Notes under the pieces: model-generated | Databases searched by the model: none | Told to the model about the DNA's origin: nothing | Seen by the model: the letters and a program-made list of their open reading frames with translations, nothing else | Position numbers and translations under genes: made by a program | From: a virus | Length of the DNA stretch: 26,419 nucleotides | Reading direction: 5' to 3' (one strand) | Virus record (IMG/VR): IMGVR_UViG_3300025617_000096 | Coordinates: 1-26,419 of that record | Shown: positions 1 through 24,431 of the stretch, in pieces | Layout of the letters: every line of letters begins with the position of its first letter | Numbering within the stretch: the first letter of the stretch is position 1

Positions 1-2496
1 AGCTATAACTACGGTGGTGGTAATATACCGCCTATGTATGCTAATCAAGGCGCTCTTACTGAGTTCTTAAAAGCAGAGGAAGGCCTTCGTAATGAAGCAT
101 ACTTAGACGCTGCAGGTGTACCCACAGTAGGTTATGGCAGTACTTATGGCGTTAAAATGGGTGATAAGCTATCTGATGCACAAGCAAATCAACAACTGAT
201 GAAAGATATTGCTGTTGTAGAAGAAGACTACGGTAATCTTGTTGATGTAGATTTAAACCCTAATCAACAAACTGCAGTTAAATCTTTACTATTTAATATC
301 GGTGGTCCTCAATTTGCTAACAGTAGAGCTAGAGCAGCACTTAATGCAGGTGACTTTGACACTTTTCAAAAAGAAGCTTCAGAGTTTCGCATGGCAAATG
401 GTGAGGTTCTTCCAGGTCTTGAAGCTCGTAGAGCCAGAGAAATGGATTTATTTCGAACTCCTTATGAAACAGCAGATACTGATAAAGACACAGGCTTTTC
501 GTTTATTAAGAGCGCTCAAGCAGCTGATGATGTATCTGATGCTCAAATGTTAGGTGAGTATGAGATAGACGGTATTGCAACGCCTAAAGATGAAGGATTC
601 TTTTCTCCACAAGTAAAAAGATTTTTACAGTATCCTTTAGAATCATTTGGAGTTCCTGTACCTGAAGATGCTCCTGGAAAGCCAGTAGGTAATAAGCTAT
701 TTGGAACCGAATCAACAATAATTAAAGAAGAACAAGCAGAACGAGCGCTTAAGTATCCTGCAGAATTTTTAGGTATACCAGCACCTCTAGATGCTCCTGG
801 AGTTCCTCTTCCTAATGTATTTGATTTGCTTCCAGATGAAGATAAAACAATAGCTAACCTTAATGAGATGCGTGTTAATGAACGACAAAGTAAAGTTGAT
901 AGATTAGCAAATCGAATTAATGAAAACCAAGAGAAAGGAATTCCTGTTTCTCCTGAGTTAGTTGCAGCACACCAAGAAGCAACTGCAAGCCTTGGCGAAG
1001 CACAACAAGTTCAGCAAAAACATGCTGCAGAAGTAGGTGCTGAAGTTACAAAAACAGCGGAAGCAACTGCAAAAGCACAAACTTATAATACTGAAACAGG
1101 TAAATTTGATAAACCAACTGAGCAAAAAGAGACTTCAGGGACTACTGAACAAAGAGATGCGGCAGCTAATGCGGCTGCAGCAGGTGCAGGACAACCTGAT
1201 CCGACAGAAAATCCTTCAGCTGAAACTCAAATGCTGTTAAATTTAGGTTACACCAAAGATGAAAATGGTAATTGGATAGAGCCTAAAGATGAAGAAGTTC
1301 CTGACGAAGTAAAAGGTTTTAGAGATCAAGCAGTAGATGCGTTTAAAGGTGCGTTTGGTGACTTGTTTAATCCTAAAGAACTTGCTCGTATGGCATTGCT
1401 TTATACAGGCAGTCGTCTTATGGGATACAGTCACGAAGGTTCATTTGCTTATGGTGCTAAAAGTTATCTTAATCGTGTTGATGCTATGGATGCTCAGTTC
1501 CAAAAAGATATTCGGGATGATGACTACCTAGATTACACTGAAGAGTCTCGCAAAGAGTTTGAAAAAACAAGAGACTATTCTGTACTTCGTAAAAAGAAAA
1601 CTGCAGTGACTATGGAAAAGCCAACAGGTAACTCTAACTTAATTGGTGTTGGTAAAGTTCAAAGATTTTTAGGTACTGATGGTAATGAGTATGTAGAATA
1701 TGAAGGTGGTATGACTCCAGTTTCTGCTCTTGTTGATTTATTAGAGCCGTGGGATGAAGCTACTCAAGGAAGAGAAGCAGTAACTGCTGATTTTAAAGCT
1801 GCCTTCGATAGCGCTGCTGCTACTGCAAATACTGAAAGAGGCTTACGGGCTGGTACTCGAAATAAAACTAGTTATGATGATCGAGTACCTTTTGATTCTG
1901 TTAGTCTTGCAAGAGAAGCAGAAAGTAGATACAGAGAAATCCTTCATCAAAACGGTGTGTCTATTAACGATGCACCTGAACTAAAAATTAATGTTAATAA
2001 TGCTATCAGTAAATTTGTAAATGATACAATTGATTTTAAACAGTCAGGTGGCAAAGGTACAAAACCGAATAGTATTAGAGCATATATTAATGCTGAAACA
2101 AGATCAGTATTAACAGGTGTACCTCAATTTGCAATGAATGGTGCTTCTGAAAATAATATGAATATCCTTGACGATAAGATTAAGAAAGAAGTTAGGGATG
2201 AAAATGGTAAAAGACTTGGTCCTAAAGATAAGGGATACGCTGAAGCATACGAAAATCTATGGTCGGCTACTTATGCAGCTTATCGTTTAAGAAGCCAATA
2301 TCCTAATCTTGATTCTCAAAGCGATGTTAATCTTGAAGAACTCGTAGAAAAGAAAAGAGAAAGAAATAAGAAAAAGAAAGATCCTGCAAATGAATGGACA
2401 CCATTTACTTTGTGGATGAGTAGAACACCAGCAAGTGAAGTTCAAGCAATTATTGAACAAGCAAAGCTTGATGGTAGTTTAGATAAACTTATCTAA
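1..2496 (+). CDS. Virion-associated lysozyme-domain protein (5' partial)
   Basis: A large virion/ejection-type protein whose N-terminal part is a T4-type (GH24) lysozyme that should cut peptidoglycan during DNA entry. Counting from the Met at 34, residues 10-145 carry the family's catalytic pattern E16-x8-D25-x5-T31, followed by VGYG. After it come two imperfect copies of a proline-rich motif (residues about 195-217 and 235-258, sharing YP...FG-P.P.DAPG.P), then a charged, probably coiled-coil stretch (about 265-345), an Ala/Gln/Glu-rich region and a long unrecognised C-terminal half. The frame is open to base 1 and no ribosome binding site precedes the Met at 34, so the true start lies upstream of the window. 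At more than 820 residues it is far longer than a free endolysin (about 160), which with its place before two giant genes points to an internal virion protein. The lysozyme call is firm; the virion role is inference. Confidence 0.85.
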   Translation, partial: SYNYGGGNIPPMYANQGALTEFLKAEEGLRNEAYLDAAGVPTVGYGSTYGVKMGDKLSDAQANQQLMKDIAVVEEDYGNLVDVDLNPNQQTAVKSLLFNIGGPQFANSRARAALNAGDFDTFQKEASEFRMANGEVLPGLEARRAREMDLFRTPYETADTDKDTGFSFIKSAQAADDVSDAQMLGEYEIDGIATPKDEGFFSPQVKRFLQYPLESFGVPVPEDAPGKPVGNKLFGTESTIIKEEQAERALKYPAEFLGIPAPLDAPGVPLPNVFDLLPDEDKTIANLNEMRVNERQSKVDRLANRINENQEKGIPVSPELVAAHQEATASLGEAQQVQQKHAAEVGAEVTKTAEATAKAQTYNTETGKFDKPTEQKETSGTTEQRDAAANAAAAGAGQPDPTENPSAETQMLLNLGYTKDENGNWIEPKDEEVPDEVKGFRDQAVDAFKGAFGDLFNPKELARMALLYTGSRLMGYSHEGSFAYGAKSYLNRVDAMDAQFQKDIRDDDYLDYTEESRKEFEKTRDYSVLRKKKTAVTMEKPTGNSNLIGVGKVQRFLGTDGNEYVEYEGGMTPVSALVDLLEPWDEATQGREAVTADFKAAFDSAAATANTERGLRAGTRNKTSYDDRVPFDSVSLAREAESRYREILHQNGVSINDAPELKINVNNAISKFVNDTIDFKQSGGKGTKPNSIRAYINAETRSVLTGVPQFAMNGASENNMNILDDKIKKEVRDENGKRLGPKDKGYAEAYENLWSATYAAYRLRSQYPNLDSQSDVNLEELVEKKRERNKKKKDPANEWTPFTLWMSRTPASEVQAIIEQAKLDGSLDKLI

Positions 2497-2502
2497 ATTA
2501 TA

Positions 2503-2555
2503 CCCTAAGAGATAATACACCCTTATAGGGGAGTGTCTCTTAGGGTTTTTTTTTT
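2503..2555 (+). terminator. Intrinsic terminator enclosing a promoter-like motif
   Basis: The arms CCCTAAGAGA (2503-2512) and TCTCTTAGGG (2536-2545) pair perfectly and are followed by ten T residues (2546-2555). The 23-nt interval between the arms can pair further (CAC with GTG, CCC with GGG). It sits 6 bases after the stop of the lysozyme-domain gene and 20 bases before the next start, so it should end or reduce transcription between these genes. The interval also holds the ACACCCTTATAGGGG motif, which could restart transcription. Confidence 0.85.
2517..2531 (+). promoter_or_regulatory. Candidate phage RNA polymerase promoter (copy 1)
   Basis: ACACCCTTATAGGGG is repeated exactly on the - strand at 23223-23209, upstream of the other operon. 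The surrounding TAATACACCC...TATAGGGG recalls the T7 promoter (TAATAC and TATAGGG blocks) with the two blocks 2 bases closer together. The motif also contains a small dyad, CCCT-TAT-AGGG, which resembles the short-stem, 3-nt-loop hairpins used by the N4 virion RNA polymerase. Which polymerase would read it cannot be told from sequence. Confidence 0.55.
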
Positions 2556-2575: not shown

Positions 2576-5500
2576 ATGGCAGAAGACTTTATTGATGAAG
2601 AAGGTAATTCTCGCCAATGGATAGACGGAGATACAATTGAAGGTAAAGGCAATCGAGATATCCGTATCCAAGGGCTTAATGCTCCTGAAACAAGCAAAGT
2701 AATTCGAAGAGATGGTAAGCTACGTTTTGTGCAAGGTCAGCTAGGCGGTGAAGAAACAACTAATGCAATAGCTAGAATTGCAAAAGAAGGTGGCTTTAAT
2801 AAAATTGTAGACACAGGTCTTGACTCGTTTGGTCGTGATGTTGCTCGTATTGAAAACGAAGAAGGTGCTGATCTTACAAATACTTTGTACAGGTCAGGTG
2901 CTATTCAAGAAGATATCTTTACTGATGCAGAAGGTATACGAGCCGCACAACAAGGTAGATTACAAGCACAGTTAAAAGGTAAGCGTGATTACCAAAATAT
3001 AATTCACGAAGAGCTAGGCGAAATACAACAAATGCCTATCTTGTTTAAAGAGTCAGCTAATAATGAAAAAGAGTATTTAGATTCAGTTATGCAAACTATT
3101 GCTCTTCAAAAGGGTTATGATCTAACTACTGAAGAAGACTATAAAGCAGCTTATGATCTTGCAATTGAAGGTAACTATGATACCCGTAGTTTACCTTTTA
3201 ACGCTATTGATTTTTCTTATGGCGACAGAGATATGACGGGTGTAGCCTACAATCAGTTTACACAATCATGGAATACTGGTTGGAAAGGAATGTCTACTGC
3301 TCTAGCTGGATTTGCAGAGCTAGCAGGGGTAGGACTAGGAATTGAAGACTTAGAAAGATGGGGCGCAACTGAAGTTGAGCTTGCCAAAGATGATTTGTCT
3401 AATGCACCTATACTTAAGAACTTAGACTTCAGAGATGTTGATGGACTCTGGGATGGCTGGCAATACCTTACTAATAATATGGCTATGTCTGCACCCTACC
3501 TTATTACTCTATCAGCAGGTCACTTGCTTTCGCCTGTAACATTCGGTGCGTCAATACCGCTTGCTTATGGTTCAATGGTAGGTGTTCACTCAGGTAACGT
3601 ATGGAATGATATTGAAGGGGAAAAAGGCCAAAAAGAAGCTGCAGGATCTTTAATTGCAGGTACTGCTATGGCAGTTATGGACAGGATTGGTATGCAAGGT
3701 ATTCTTGCTCCGTCTAAGCTATTAACTAAGTCAGGAAGGCTAGAAGTAGCTAAGGCGTTAAAGAAACAAAACCCAGGAATGACATCTAAACAAGCGCTTG
3801 CTTTAATTAATAAAGAAAGTAAGTCAGTAATTAAAGGTGCTATTCAGGGCATGGGTAACTTTGCTGCTGACCATATTAATCGCGGTAGCTTAGTTAAAAG
3901 TGTTTTAAAAGGTGCTGGACGAGGTGGAATCACTGAGGCTGTAACTGAAGCAGCACAAGAAGGAACAGGCTATATTGCTTCAAAACAAATGTCAGAAGGT
4001 GGGCTTGAACAAAACTTTAATCCTAACGAGTTTAGTAATCTGTTAGCTTCTGCTGCAGTTGCTGGTGGATCGCTAGGTGCTGGCTTTGGTGGAGCTGGTT
4101 CTATTGTTGAAGCAGGTGACCGTTATGCAATGAGCAAAGGTCTTATGCTAGGTCGTGTAGACAAATTAAATCCTTACGATCAGATATCCCAAGAAATTGG
4201 TAGACAAGGTTCTGTTTATGATATTACTAGAGACCTAAAAAGAAAAACTTATACTAAGGAAGGTGGGCGTTTAGGCGCAGACTATGCTACTAAAGGTAAA
4301 GAACAACGAGGTTCTCTTTGGGATAAAATTAAAAATCCAACTAAGTATCTCCCTGAGTTATACAGAGCTGCCGCTACTACTGCTTTTCGTCCTGAGTTAC
4401 TAAGACGTTCTGAAGCAGCTAGAAAACTTTATGCACTAGTAGGTCAACCACTTGGTAGACTCTATTCAGGTAGAGATGTAGGCGCTCAAGAACAAAAGCA
4501 CAGAGCCGACTTGCTTAATCAATTAAATGCTCAACGTATTTTTAAGCGGTTCGGTTTACCTGACAGAGTATCTAGCTCTAATCGCATATCAGACATGATA
4601 CGTAGGTTTGTAGCGGCTAAAGGTGATCGTGATGCTTTAATTAATGACCAAGAAGTGATGGAAAATTATGATTCTATTTTGACAACTGTAAATGAGTTGC
4701 AAGGCTATATGCAGATGGATTATGATTTGCGTAATGATACTTATTTAGGCCAAGGTAGCAATCGTACAGATCTTCTATTTGAAAATTGGTTAGACACTCA
4801 AGGATGGGACTGGAAAAAAGTAAGAGACAATCGTGATGCTTGGTTTAAATGGATGCGTGGAGTAAAAGACTCATCAGGCAAACAAGCTTATACTGAAGCT
4901 GAAATTGAAGAAATGTATAATAAGATTTCTAACAATGAAGATGTTACTGATTTCTCTATTGTAGAAGGCGTTGCACATGTTCCAGGATCAGTTAAAGGCG
5001 ATGTAACAAAAACTTTATCTAGTATTCCAGGGTATGAACAGTTTGCAAACACAGATATCCTTCAAAACTTAATTAATAGAGCAGATCAAACAGCTAAGTA
5101 TGCAGCTTACACAGAATACTTTGGTGAAGGTGGTAAGTACCTAGATCAACTATATTCTGAAATGAAAAATGATGGGCTAACTGATGATGAAATAGCTGAA
5201 GTTGCTTACCATACTAAAAGCATTATTGATGCTGGAACAGGTAACTATAAGCCAATTAAAAACAGGAAGATAGCAAATCTACAACGTACAGGTGCATTTT
5301 ATGCGTCAACAGTAGGCCTTCCGTTAGCGGCATTTAGTTCTATTCCTGAATTTATTATGATACTGTGGCAAGGCCGTGGATCTTCTGATGTTAAGCGCGG
5401 AATTTATTCTGCAACAGGAGAGCTTGTTGAGATCTTTAAAGGTGTAGTTAATATGAAGCAGAATCCTGCTTTAAAAACTCAGCCTAACCTGCCTATTTAT

Positions 5501-6640
5501 AGACAGTCAGTACAAGACCTTATTAATGCTGGATTATTCCCTGATGATGCAACCGTAGCTACTCGTTACGGGCTAGGTGAAACCGATATTAGTAAAGCTT
5601 GGTGGCAAAAACAATTCTTTAAGTTTACAGGTATTGCAGGAATAACACAATTACAGAGATCAATTGCCGCAGCAGCTGTATCTGGTTTTGTTTCTGACAG
5701 AATTAAAATTCTTTTAGCTAATGAAACTAATATGAATGCTAAAATTTCTTTTGGTAAATGGAATGCTGCAGAAAAAGGTAGCCCTGTTCTTAATGTTAAA
5801 ACTAAACGGCAACCTTATAATCAAGACCAACTAGAAGTTTATCGTCAGCTAGTTAACTTAGGTATGGACGTAGACGAGTATATTCGTATACAAAAGAAAT
5901 ACACTAATACAGATAAAAATTCTCAAGGAAGAACATTGTATGATAGGTTAATGAAAATAGATCCCAATGATCCTGAAATAGCAGCCGATATGGATTTTAT
6001 ACAAGAACAAATGGAAACTGTAACGTGGTATTTTGTTAACGATAGAGTTCAAAACCCACAAGCTTATAACAGACCTCTGTTTTTTCAAGATCCTCATTTT
6101 CAGTTGTTTGTTCAGTTCAATGGTTTTATTTCTACTTTTACTGCAAACATTGTACCTAAACTTTGGAATGATTATCTTAAAAACGGTAGCCCTCGAATGC
6201 AATACAATACTTTTGCATTGATTTGTGTAATGACAGCAACTGCTGGTGCATCCCAATGGCTTAAAGATTACCTTAAGTTTGGAGGGTCAACACCTTATCT
6301 GTCTAATGAACAGCTTGTTCAACGTGCGCTTATGAATTCAGGTGTACTAGGGACAAGTGAAAGAATACTTAATGCAGCATTTCCATTATATGCAGACCGT
6401 GATGAAGGAATTGCAGGTAGAATATTTGGTGAGACCGTTGGTGGTGCGCCAACAGCTAGACTTGGATTTACAGCAGGTAAACTAATTAAAGAAATTGGTG
6501 AGGGTGATTATGAAGGTTCATTACGTGCAGGAACAAAACTATTACCTGGAATAGCACCAGTAACACCTGTTAGAAATGCAATAACAGATTTAATGCAAGG
6601 TCAGCTACCAACAAAGTGGCCATTTGATAAAGGAGAATAA
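2576..6640 (+). CDS. Giant ejection-type protein with N-terminal thermonuclease domain
   Basis: A 1354-residue protein beginning with a staphylococcal-nuclease (SNase) fold at residues about 15-112. DGDT (17-20), R30, the NAPET block (35-39, with E38) and FGR (R87) match the family's active-site layout (Asp21, Arg35, Asp40, Glu43, Arg87 in the Staphylococcus enzyme). The one visible departure is Asn35 where Asp40 is usual. The rest is unrecognised but has hydrophobic or Gly/Ala-rich stretches near 303-337, 355-368, 490-512, 905-932 and 1211-1230, which would suit an ejected protein that crosses or lines the cell envelope. The start is supported by AGGAGG 5 bases upstream. It sits between the lysozyme-domain gene and the RNA-polymerase-like gene, where T7 and N4 relatives keep ejected internal proteins. 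The nuclease may act on host or superinfecting DNA or help in entry; that part is inference. Confidence 0.8.
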   Translation: MAEDFIDEEGNSRQWIDGDTIEGKGNRDIRIQGLNAPETSKVIRRDGKLRFVQGQLGGEETTNAIARIAKEGGFNKIVDTGLDSFGRDVARIENEEGADLTNTLYRSGAIQEDIFTDAEGIRAAQQGRLQAQLKGKRDYQNIIHEELGEIQQMPILFKESANNEKEYLDSVMQTIALQKGYDLTTEEDYKAAYDLAIEGNYDTRSLPFNAIDFSYGDRDMTGVAYNQFTQSWNTGWKGMSTALAGFAELAGVGLGIEDLERWGATEVELAKDDLSNAPILKNLDFRDVDGLWDGWQYLTNNMAMSAPYLITLSAGHLLSPVTFGASIPLAYGSMVGVHSGNVWNDIEGEKGQKEAAGSLIAGTAMAVMDRIGMQGILAPSKLLTKSGRLEVAKALKKQNPGMTSKQALALINKESKSVIKGAIQGMGNFAADHINRGSLVKSVLKGAGRGGITEAVTEAAQEGTGYIASKQMSEGGLEQNFNPNEFSNLLASAAVAGGSLGAGFGGAGSIVEAGDRYAMSKGLMLGRVDKLNPYDQISQEIGRQGSVYDITRDLKRKTYTKEGGRLGADYATKGKEQRGSLWDKIKNPTKYLPELYRAAATTAFRPELLRRSEAARKLYALVGQPLGRLYSGRDVGAQEQKHRADLLNQLNAQRIFKRFGLPDRVSSSNRISDMIRRFVAAKGDRDALINDQEVMENYDSILTTVNELQGYMQMDYDLRNDTYLGQGSNRTDLLFENWLDTQGWDWKKVRDNRDAWFKWMRGVKDSSGKQAYTEAEIEEMYNKISNNEDVTDFSIVEGVAHVPGSVKGDVTKTLSSIPGYEQFANTDILQNLINRADQTAKYAAYTEYFGEGGKYLDQLYSEMKNDGLTDDEIAEVAYHTKSIIDAGTGNYKPIKNRKIANLQRTGAFYASTVGLPLAAFSSIPEFIMILWQGRGSSDVKRGIYSATGELVEIFKGVVNMKQNPALKTQPNLPIYRQSVQDLINAGLFPDDATVATRYGLGETDISKAWWQKQFFKFTGIAGITQLQRSIAAAAVSGFVSDRIKILLANETNMNAKISFGKWNAAEKGSPVLNVKTKRQPYNQDQLEVYRQLVNLGMDVDEYIRIQKKYTNTDKNSQGRTLYDRLMKIDPNDPEIAADMDFIQEQMETVTWYFVNDRVQNPQAYNRPLFFQDPHFQLFVQFNGFISTFTANIVPKLWNDYLKNGSPRMQYNTFALICVMTATAGASQWLKDYLKFGGSTPYLSNEQLVQRALMNSGVLGTSERILNAAFPLYADRDEGIAGRIFGETVGGAPTARLGFTAGKLIKEIGEGDYEGSLRAGTKLLPGIAPVTPVRNAITDLMQGQLPTKWPFDKGE

Positions 6641-16302: not shown

Positions 16303-16989
16303 TTATACCTCAAAGAAATCAGTTGGATTACGCAAGATATGAATACCGTTTGCTGTTTCCAGTAACTTCTCTTTCCAATTTACTATGCCGTATTTAGCTC
16401 TGTAAGCAGCAATAACACGCTTCTTACGCCTATTCATTGGTACACCTTTAAGCATTGCTTCTGCTTTCTTAGGGCCAATCTTAGGTAGTCCAGGCAGGTT
16501 ATCTGTTGGATCACCCTTAAGCATTTGAGTCCAGTAAAGAAGGTCTGCGGTATCAATATCGATTTCATAGAATTCTTCTTTCTTAGGATTGAAATGCTTT
16601 CCTGGAATACAATCAAGGTCTTTATCGATATGCACTACCGTAAAGTCTTGATTAAGACCAGCACACTCAGTTGCCTTGATACGCACCATATCGTCAGCTT
16701 CCATACCATCTGAGGGTATAGCAAGCCCTTTATCGATAATTAGTTGTATTAGTGGTCTAAAGAACTTAGCCTTTTCAGGTGGGTCTTTGCGATTAGACTT
16801 ATACTGTGGGCATAAGTTATAACGAAAGTTATCTTTACCAGCACAATAAATAATCCTTTCATCAGCCCATACAGGCTCAATCCAGTATTTATTCAATATG
16901 TTTTGATAGTTTTCAAATGCAGCATCAAGATCTGGTTGATCCCAAGCTGACTGATAGATACAACTATCAGCATCAATAATAGCAATCAT
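16303..16989 (-). CDS. 5'-3' exonuclease (FEN/T7 gp6-like)
   Basis: A 228-residue structure-specific 5' nuclease expected to remove RNA primers and degrade host DNA. Visible signatures are IIDADS (D6, D8), YKSNRK, GMEADD (metal-binding acidic cluster), IDKDLD and the helix-hairpin-helix block GDPTDNLPGLPKIGPKKA. These cover the normal catalytic and DNA-binding elements of the FEN family. AAAGGA lies about 8 bases upstream of the ATG. It is immediately downstream of the DNA polymerase gene (12-base gap), a natural partnership because the polymerase itself lacks a 5' nuclease domain. Confidence 0.93.
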   Translation of the reverse strand: MIAIIDADSCIYQSAWDQPDLDAAFENYQNILNKYWIEPVWADERIIYCAGKDNFRYNLCPQYKSNRKDPPEKAKFFRPLIQLIIDKGLAIPSDGMEADDMVRIKATECAGLNQDFTVVHIDKDLDCIPGKHFNPKKEEFYEIDIDTADLLYWTQMLKGDPTDNLPGLPKIGPKKAEAMLKGVPMNRRKKRVIAAYRAKYGIVNWKEKLLETANGIHILRNPTDFFEV

Positions 16990-19739: not shown

Positions 19740-20177
19740 TCAGTCAAAGTAATAGGTGCAAGCATCAAGACAGTCTTCAAGTGTATTGTGCTTTTCAGTG
19801 TAAATGCTCTCATAGAACGGGTGTATGAGGTCATTTGGTAATGCCCATAAGATAATAATCTTATTTTTCATGTGAGCAAACATAAGTTCCATAGCAGTAC
19901 CCGTGCCACGACCACTCATTCTACGAACATCAGCAAGTATAACTGTACTGTTAGCTATATCTTGCATGTCCATTTTAAAGATGCGTCTGCATACCGATTG
20001 TACTGGAACACCTTTCTGTTCTAATGTTAACTCATCGTGGAACGCAACCCGTCTAGTTGGATCTAGGTATTGTATACCTGCTTCATCCAAAGTATTCGAT
20101 GCCTGAGTCCTCCATCCCGTCATCCATTCTTCTGTGCAGTCTTCCATTGGACCTGCTAGGTAAACGTAATTCTTCAT
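19740..20177 (-). CDS. Nucleoside 2-deoxyribosyltransferase-like protein
   Basis: A 145-residue Rossmann-like protein. It starts with YVYLAGPM, has D70 in KMDMQDI, STVILADV (77-84) and GTAMELMFAH with the likely catalytic Glu97, the layout of nucleoside 2-deoxyribosyltransferases and related N-glycosidases. The expected role is to exchange or remove bases from deoxynucleosides or deoxynucleotides, that is, salvage or pool control. The start at ATG 20177 is chosen because AAAGGAAAG lies just upstream; an in-frame ATG at 20192 would contain that site. Substrate cannot be read from sequence. Together with dCMP deaminase it points to manipulation of the nucleotide pool. Confidence 0.75.
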   Translation of the reverse strand: MKNYVYLAGPMEDCTEEWMTGWRTQASNTLDEAGIQYLDPTRRVAFHDELTLEQKGVPVQSVCRRIFKMDMQDIANSTVILADVRRMSGRGTGTAMELMFAHMKNKIIILWALPNDLIHPFYESIYTEKHNTLEDCLDACTYYFD

Positions 20178-20355
20178 GCTCTTTCCTTTCATGTTCTATT
20201 ACGTATAGTTTTAACTGTTCAATTTGTTTGACACAAGCTACGTAATGCTGGTGTCCTATTTTACCTCTCATGTGCATTTCAGACCAATAGTCTGCGCACT
20301 CATTCAGGGCTGTTATCGTTGGCTGTAAGCTCTCTCTTAATGTCTTTAATCGCAT
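20083..20355 (-). CDS. Possible overlapping gene, 90 aa
   Basis: A 122-base gap separates the genes on either side in a densely packed operon, and this frame covers it. It begins MRLKTLRESLQ with a distant GAGG upstream and includes a charged helical stretch (QIEQLKLYVIEHERKE). It overlaps the upstream gene by 56 bases and the deoxyribosyltransferase-like gene by 95 bases, which is long. A shorter form starting at an internal Met is possible. Weak support. Confidence 0.35.
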   Translation of the reverse strand: MRLKTLRESLQPTITALNECADYWSEMHMRGKIGHQHYVACVKQIEQLKLYVIEHERKEHEELRLPSRSNGRLHRRMDDGMEDSGIEYFG

Positions 20356-20626
20356 CTTGTAGTGCCTCACGAAGATCTGATGTAATACCCATATTACCAT
20401 CCTCATCAATGATAATATTTTCTTCTACCATATTATCGAAACAAACACCAGAGAATTGTAGAAATAGAAAGAGATAGGCTAGCTCATCGTCTATCAACTC
20501 TTTCAGAGATAACCCATCTATTACTTCCCAGAGGCTAACGATCCCTGCTTCCAGCAATCGTTGCTCCTCATCCTCAAGGCTTACTTCGACTTTATGTTTA
20601 GGTTTAAAGTCGATGACATCACCCAT
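20300..20626 (-). CDS. Hypothetical acidic 108-aa protein
   Basis: Begins MGDVIDFKPKHKVEVSLEDEE, is strongly acidic, and has a hydrophobic patch (ELAYLFLFLQFSGVCF) in the middle that is too interrupted for a confident membrane call. Its ATG overlaps the TAA of the ssDNA-binding protein gene by one base (TAATG), so it is probably co-translated with it. Not recognised. Confidence 0.65.
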   Translation of the reverse strand: MGDVIDFKPKHKVEVSLEDEEQRLLEAGIVSLWEVIDGLSLKELIDDELAYLFLFLQFSGVCFDNMVEENIIIDEDGNMGITSDLREALQDAIKDIKRELTANDNSPE

Positions 20627-21111
20627 TAAAAGTCTACCTGCTCTTCAGTTTCTGATTCACCTTCAATGATATCAAAGTCTGTACCTGTGTTTGGTGTGTA
20701 CTCTTTGAGTTCTGTGATTTGTACTTTAGACAAGATGCTTGCCACACCTTTACGGCCACCTACATCATACGGATACTGGAATAGCATTACATTACCGATA
20801 CTACCATTACCTACCTTGTTTCCGTCCATGCTTTTCTTAGCACCGTCTAGTACTTCAGGCGCATCATTAGGCTCACCATCTTTCTTAAGTGCTTTACGCT
20901 TGACGTTTGTTTTGTAGAATACACCGTCATCATCTTCTTCTGTCTTGACATTGAGATAAAAGTCTTCCTTCCATTTCTTTGCTTCGTTCTTATCACGAGT
21001 ACGCATTTGCAGTTCCCACTGTAGTGTACCGAAAGGCTCTACAGGCTTTACCAGCTTAGCCCAGTGAAGTTCTGCATTACGAATAATCTCAGTTCGCTTT
21101 TCATTAATCAT
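20626..21111 (-). CDS. gp2.5-like ssDNA-binding protein (copy A)
   Basis: A 161-residue OB-fold single-stranded DNA-binding protein for replication and recombination. The N-terminal block IIRNAELHWAKL...PFG and C-terminal block GNGSIGNVMLF...GGRKG resemble the T7 gp2.5 core (IIGGGSKLKVKYS). The protein ends in an acidic tail closing with DF (ESETEEQVDF), the feature by which gp2.5 contacts the polymerase and helicase. A clear paralogue lies at 23970-24431. GAGGAA lies about 8 bases upstream of the ATG, which overlaps the preceding zinc-ribbon gene by 8 bases. A lysine-rich middle segment (about 40-95) is longer than in copy B. Confidence 0.82.
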   Translation of the reverse strand: MINEKRTEIIRNAELHWAKLVKPVEPFGTLQWELQMRTRDKNEAKKWKEDFYLNVKTEEDDDGVFYKTNVKRKALKKDGEPNDAPEVLDGAKKSMDGNKVGNGSIGNVMLFQYPYDVGGRKGVASILSKVQITELKEYTPNTGTDFDIIEGESETEEQVDF

Positions 21112-23969: not shown

Positions 23970-24431
23970 TTAGAAGTCTTGTGCTGGTGCTGCGTCAGCG
24001 CCTTCTCCTACTACTAAGTCAAAGTCAACACTTGCTTCAGGGTTGTAAGCTACAAGGTCAGTTACTTGCACAGCAATTAGAATAGTTTTACGACCACTGC
24101 GACCGCCTGTAGACCAATCATATGAGTATACAATCAAGTTACCTGTAGAGCCATTACCGATAGGGTCAGTAATAGGTGCTTTTTCATTGTTGACTACACG
24201 AATACTATTACTTTGGCCTTTATTATTTACAGCAGGGCGGTTAATGTTTAGTGCAAAGTTACCATTAGGAAGCTGTCTTACTTTACCGAATGGTGTCATT
24301 TCATCAATACGATCTTTACTGAATTCAATTTGAATATCGAATTGTTCTTTACCGAATGGATTCATTTCAGCTTTGTATACTTTAGCATAGTTGAGTTTAA
24401 CGTTACGAATAATTGAAGTTTGCTTAGTCAT
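23970..24431 (-). CDS. gp2.5-like ssDNA-binding protein (copy B)
   Basis: A 153-residue paralogue of the protein at 20626-21111. Shared blocks are IIRN-x-L-xx-AK (N-terminal), PFG-xx-Q, GNGS-x-GN, a GGR motif, VQ-TDL/TEL-x-YNP/YTP, and a final acidic stretch ending in DF (AAPAQDF). It lacks the lysine-rich insertion of copy A and its tail is less acidic. AAAGGAA lies about 9 bases upstream of the ATG. It is separated by a terminator from the genes to its left and by two dyads and a hairpin from the gene to its right, so it is probably controlled on its own. It may serve early replication or recombination, or bind a different partner than copy A. Confidence 0.8.
   Translation of the reverse strand: MTKQTSIIRNVKLNYAKVYKAEMNPFGKEQFDIQIEFSKDRIDEMTPFGKVRQLPNGNFALNINRPAVNNKGQSNSIRVVNNEKAPITDPIGNGSTGNLIVYSYDWSTGGRSGRKTILIAVQVTDLVAYNPEASVDFDLVVGEGADAAPAQDF

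Follow-up and report, generated by a model that had tools for sequence, protein, structure and literature searches.

T7 has three internal proteins, gp14, gp15, and gp16, and the N-terminal head of gp16 is a transglycosylase; the review of ejection proteins that describes them mentions no nuclease (PMC8954989). The polyvalent proteins of phages (P1 DdrB, N4 vRNAP type) are giant late proteins thought to be injected, some of them with DNase and lysozyme domains, and the text of their survey mentions no SNase (PMC5512222). Staphylococcal nuclease (SNase) has been placed in the T4 head by engineering (IPIII/CTS fusions) and is delivered from there at infection (PMC9026906). The nuclease of phage GBSV1, considered as a further precedent, was dropped, as it is reported to have no homologues among the known nucleases. 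Members of the SNase/thermonuclease family (PF00565, COG1525) are secreted or stand-alone proteins. To our knowledge, the enzymatic heads of known ejection proteins are muralytic, transcriptional, or host-modifying.

The locus described here shares with the SNase family the fold and the active-site residues D21, R35, E43, and R87, but carries them in an N-terminal head on a phage late protein of ~1350 aa, the product of gene 2. Unlike in the T7 ejection proteins, the enzyme at the head is here a nuclease, with the muralytic function placed on a separate protein; in contrast to the engineered T4 heads, which are artificial, the arrangement is natural and conserved. The closest counterpart from an isolated phage is gp34 (QBQ72827.1) of Roseobacter phage CRP-7, a marine podovirus. 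Its homology to gene 2 covers the full length, SNase head included, and CRP-7 shares the gene order and a T7-type RNA polymerase (RNAP). The protein is 22% identical to gene 2, has Asp at SNase position 40, and is annotated as a hypothetical protein; the CRP-7 paper mentions no nuclease. We found no paper on a natural SNase joined to an ejection or internal virion protein in the literature searched, which is no proof of absence; judged from the sequences, an SNase head on an ejection-type carrier, borne by a group of phages with short tails and mostly of marine origin, appears to be a new domain architecture. The reading that we prefer, at a probability of roughly one half, is that the gene 2 product is an internal virion protein of the ejection type with an active SNase-family nuclease that would act at entry.

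SNase Domain at the N-Terminus of a Giant Late Protein

The window, i.e., the whole stretch of DNA analyzed (26,419 nt), forms a virus record in its own right; the features discussed are listed in Table 1. Full-length relatives of gene 2, drawn from viral contigs and from CRP-7, are 22–88% identical to it.

Table 1. Coordinates of the gene 2 locus in the window and the evidence for each feature
Feature	Position	Strand	Evidence
Gene 1, large protein with a Phage_lysozyme domain; start may precede the window	34..2496	+	PF00959, E 1.2e-32
Hairpin with T-run resembling a terminator, in the gap separating genes 1 and 2	2502..2546	+	Fold −25 kcal/mol, z −2.62
Gene 2, 1354-aa giant with SNase head and virion-type body	2576..6640	+	ORF; ATG start codon with AGGAGGT ahead of it
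SNase domain of gene 2, residues ~13–133; active-site equivalents D17, D19, R30, N35, E38, R87	2612..2974	+	HMM, hhalign, fold, invariance in 39 heads
Body of gene 2, residues 155–1354, homologous to LUZ24-like particle proteins	3038..6637	+	phrog_6958; body profile
Gene 3, third giant, 1264 aa	6643..10437	+	ORF; CRP-7 and relatives likewise have a giant ORF after gene 2
T7-type RNA polymerase, transcribed towards the giants (convergent)	10752..12890	−	PF00940, E 7e-57

The initial annotation had recognized an SNase-like arrangement at nucleotides 2618–2911 (gene 2 residues 15–112), and all residues that it listed (D17-G-D19-T20, R30, N35-A-P-E38-T, and F85-G86-R87) are found in the ORF. The Pfam scan of the single gene 2 protein yields no SNase match even at E ≤ 1. 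Of the 11 phage heads of the first set, only one reaches PF00565 (E 0.1). We consider the miss a matter of detection threshold: the relative L031 scores above the curated Pfam SNase cut-off (24.3 vs. 21 bits).

With an HMM of 35 bacterial SNases (L056–L059, L061–L091; mostly found with PF00565), the window head scores 35.2 bits, while ~500 shuffled or reversed heads peak at 6.0 bits; the scores of all 24 phage heads tested range from 11 to 37 bits, and gene 2 is the sole ORF of the window to match this HMM meaningfully. The hhalign comparison of the 24 phage heads with the bacterial SNases gives a probability of 98.3 (E 2e-14), against a maximum of 1.85 for 40 column-shuffled control alignments. 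Bacterial genomes scanned with the head profile return Pseudomonas thermonuclease-like proteins at ~30% identity, and the Pseudomonas SNases L056–L059 have the series DGDT…NAPET…YGR in common with the gene 2 head. The sequence search of the PDB with the head profile produced chance matches only. An SNase ORF was also seen in an unannotated gut virus scaffold (L095, MT839905; minus strand, ~2966–3244), where the HMM of bacterial SNases scores 58 bits; at ~190 aa, this ORF is no giant.

Structure prediction, proposed in the initial annotation as a check, agrees with the profiles. The AlphaFold2 model of the head, built from an alignment of relative loci from the contigs only, with CRP-7 left out, is of moderate quality (pLDDT 74, pTM 0.64) and has the order of strands and helices seen in SNase. 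In Foldseek, all 50 PDB matches listed are SNase or SND1 (E 6e-4, probability 1.00), and VIA-align superimposes residues 13–132 of the model on SNase 15–141 (Z 8.6, rmsd 3.7 over 106 aa). The best match in a library of viral structures is a protein of 1368 aa, equal in length to CRP-7 gp34. On the combined evidence of sequence profiles and predicted fold, we regard the N-terminus of gene 2 as established to be a genuine SNase domain.

Conservation of the Active Site

The 39 aligned heads fall into three groups that have diverged from one another, those of the window and of CRP-7 and a third one represented by L044–L053 and L105–L118. The heads of the latter two are ~30–36% identical to that of the window. 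Only six of the 135 positions are invariant in all 39 heads (D17, D19, R30, E38, R87, and G97), and five of them align with D19, D21, R35, E43, and R87 of SNase. Equivalents of the active-site residues D21, R35, E43, and R87 are hence present in every head; P37 and G86 are repeatedly substituted, whereas the adjoining E38 and R87 never are. For the four preset catalytic positions all to be among the six invariant ones, a simple hypergeometric calculation gives P ~1e-6, an indicative value only, as residues of these types are often conserved in any case. The dN/dS ratio of the head is 0.07–0.35 in the pairs tested, mostly above the value for the body and well below 1, i.e., the head is under purifying selection. 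Since five of the six invariant positions are SNase active-site equivalents, the active site appears to be retained, not a remnant in a decayed fold, and the nuclease of the head is probably catalytically competent.

The gene 2 head has Asn at position 40 (Asn35 of gene 2), where S. aureus SNase has Asp, as well as Ala at position 41 and a diverged C-terminal part. Asn35, which the initial annotation set against the usual Asp as a change that may lower activity or alter metal use, is not an exceptional, inactivating substitution. Asn occupies this position in 32 of the 39 phage heads and Asp in seven (the CRP-7 group and L031); among 30 bacterial PF00565 proteins the counts are 17 Asn and 13 Asp, a ratio that is a rough guide, as these are the best-scoring loci of one phylum (proteobacterial). 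Asp40 is thus not required for membership in the family, and Asn, being common in bacterial SNases, is a normal variant. The model is unreliable near E38 (pLDDT <50 at residues 36–40), and the active-site loop 36–55 is poorly modelled.

Alternatively, the head may be an SNase-fold module that binds nucleic acid without useful catalysis, its conserved charged residues holding phosphates and metal, and that grips the DNA end or lines a conduit during packaging or ejection. SNase is an OB-fold, and the SN domains of Tudor-SN/SND1, which are among the structural matches, are non-catalytic SNase folds; a live nuclease beside packaged DNA would be hazardous; and Asp40 is replaced by Asn in most heads. 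The last point, however, is offset by the frequency of Asn40 in stand-alone bacterial SNases, and exactly D21, R35, E43, and R87 never vary, in contrast to the residues around them, the G86 and P42 positions included. We regard a purely binding module as unlikely, though it deserves to be kept in mind beside the preferred reading of an active nuclease.

Body of Gene 2 and the Cassette of Giants

The bodies of 10 of the 11 relatives match PHROG 6958, "virion structural protein," with a best E of 3e-29. The body profile reaches the LUZ24-like particle protein Lyrsu01 gp23 (E 1.4e-30), from residue 77 of gp23 onward, and gp14 of Vibrio phage VPp1 (E 1.7e-10). Both proteins lack the SNase head, so that the head sits on a virion-protein body found elsewhere headless; among the body homologues of the three groups, in turn, every one with a covered N-terminus has the head. 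The LUZ24-like particle proteins (phrog_6958; Lyrsu01 gp23; UFV-P2 ORF58, homologue of LUZ24 YP_001671923) resemble gene 2 also in being encoded by a large gene that ends the structural module. The LUZ24 homologue of the body is annotated as "phage particle protein" (PMC3890496), and ESI-MS/MS of LUZ24 virions detected nine proteins (PMC3517423); going by its annotation, the homologue would be one of the nine. The body thus has the character of the "ejection-type" carrier envisaged in the initial annotation, as far as homology and the surrounding cassette indicate, and delivery of gene 2 in the virion is likely.

Searches with the body against known structures were uninformative: the PDB sequence search gave no meaningful match, T7 gp15/gp16 included, and Foldseek gave none at E ≤ 0.001, again including gp15/gp16, with a model too poor for such a comparison (pLDDT 55.5). 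Gene 2 can be likened to the polyvalent proteins as a giant late protein with an effector domain, but LPD, MPTase, and ParB-type domains have no Pfam match in 23 bodies; DarB-like phrog_10089 matches the body weakly (E 0.0046). Two further candidates were discarded, namely a KPP25 "structural protein" (E ~1, its gene spanning the record start) and mycobacteriophage "VIP2-like" tblastn matches (E 4–8, chance).

Gene 2 is preceded by one large protein and followed by another, not just in the window but also in CRP-7 (gp35-gp34-gp33) and the inspected relatives. This cassette comes last among the late genes, facing the RNAP wherever the flank is covered; a T7-type RNAP was found in five further contigs tested. 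The initial annotation had placed gene 2 between a lysozyme-domain gene and an RNAP-like gene: the former is indeed directly upstream, whereas the latter is separated from gene 2 by gene 3, for which no Pfam or PHROG family match was found. Genes 2 and 3 are 2 nt apart, and genes 1 and 2 are separated by ~80 nt with the hairpin; with gaps of this size, no immunity gene adjoins the nuclease. The hairpin, being inside the late operon, could lower the expression of the two giants downstream.

In relatives of the window and CRP-7 groups tested, gene 1 keeps a muralytic domain through swaps of unrelated types: Phage_lysozyme in the window and L002, SLT in L009 and L016, Phage_lysozyme2 in L031, and a Pesticin-like domain in L017. 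The hydrolase thus changes among four types beside a constant SNase head. Gene 1 of the third group (L046, L050) gave no match to a muralytic domain.

Several other genes of the window are mentioned for completeness, all on the minus strand: a SegE-type GIY-YIG endonuclease among the replication genes (15618–16313; PF19835, E 1.9e-23); a nucleoside 2-deoxyribosyltransferase-like gene (19740–20192) and a dCMP-deaminase-like gene (13071–13505); and a paralogous pair, 20626–21111 and 23970–24431 (34% identity, E 2e-24), the first of which weakly matches the Enc34 ssDNA-binding protein, so that the pair is possibly a duplicated single-strand-binding protein.

Discussion

The proposal of an ejected, active nuclease is supported by the invariance of the active site, purifying selection, the virion-type body, and the conserved cassette. 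In the course of events that we propose, the three giants would be packaged close to the portal, leave the virion ahead of or together with the DNA, and build a conduit across the envelope, the cell wall being opened by the muralytic domain of gene 1. The SNase head, as read from its sequence, has no cysteine, which would suit passage through the portal and refolding outside the capsid. The refolded head may then cut nucleic acid non-specifically around the entry site, in the periplasm and/or the cytoplasm, with host RNA or DNA or the DNA of competing phages as candidate substrates. Free Ca2+ in the cytosol is too low for canonical SNase, and calcium availability favors periplasmic over cytosolic action.

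Calcium is also the source of the main difficulty. Seawater contains ~10 mM Ca2+, hence lack of metal would give a marine virion no protection, and restraint in the capsid would have to come from packing or incomplete folding of the head, which may hold it inactive there. When SNase is built into T4 heads by engineering, it stays in the capsid in a form that added Ca2+ can switch on, and the phage DNA is then digested (PMC9026906; also PMC7697877). These heads provide a precedent for virion delivery of SNase, and at the same time the loss of their own genome when Ca2+ enters is what speaks most against a nuclease kept for entry. The proposal is further weakened by the Asn at position 40 in most heads, by the unreliable model around E38, by the lack of room for an immunity gene between the giants, by the failure of the sequence and fold searches to link the body to T7 gp15/gp16, and by the third-group gene 1 in which no muralytic domain was detected.

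An internal protein adjoins the genome throughout, and the target of the head could instead be the phage's own DNA as the particle assembles or the DNA enters, for example by nicking or trimming packaged DNA or by clearing DNA trapped in the portal. In the LUZ24-like phage tf, which belongs to the group that has the related body protein, 14 localized nicks are present in the virion DNA (PMC3517423). The tf nicks, however, occur at a consensus sequence and SNase cuts without specificity, and the LUZ24-like relative examined has no SNase head; we therefore rejected the nicks as the work of this head as the main reading, and consider action on the phage's own DNA improbable.

It is less probable still that gene 2 is a late protein that never enters the virion and whose SNase degrades host DNA in the infected cell for nucleotide recycling. 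The position in the late operon alone would allow it, the presence of gene 2 in the virion being itself inferred; the homology of the body to particle proteins and the fixed place among the giants argue for a virion protein, and the low cytosolic Ca2+ is again unfavorable. Finally, chance resemblance of the DGDT…NAPE…FGR pattern, to which the missing Pfam match of the window protein and the single first-set head at PF00565 might point, is ruled out by the HMM decoys and hhalign controls, in line with the predicted fold and the score of L031.

Returning to the nuclease acting at entry, we put forward tentatively, and with somewhat less confidence than for gene 2 itself, that a widespread, partly marine lineage of podoviruses injects an active non-specific SNase that is restrained from its own genome in calcium-rich seawater. 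The conserved SNase head would then be the natural counterpart of the engineered T4-SNase capsid, raising the question of how a virion keeps an active nuclease beside its own DNA at ~10 mM calcium. It would also suggest a candidate role for ejected proteins beyond the channel, in host takeover or the exclusion of rivals, and the CRP-7 homologue offers an isolated phage in which this may be approached.
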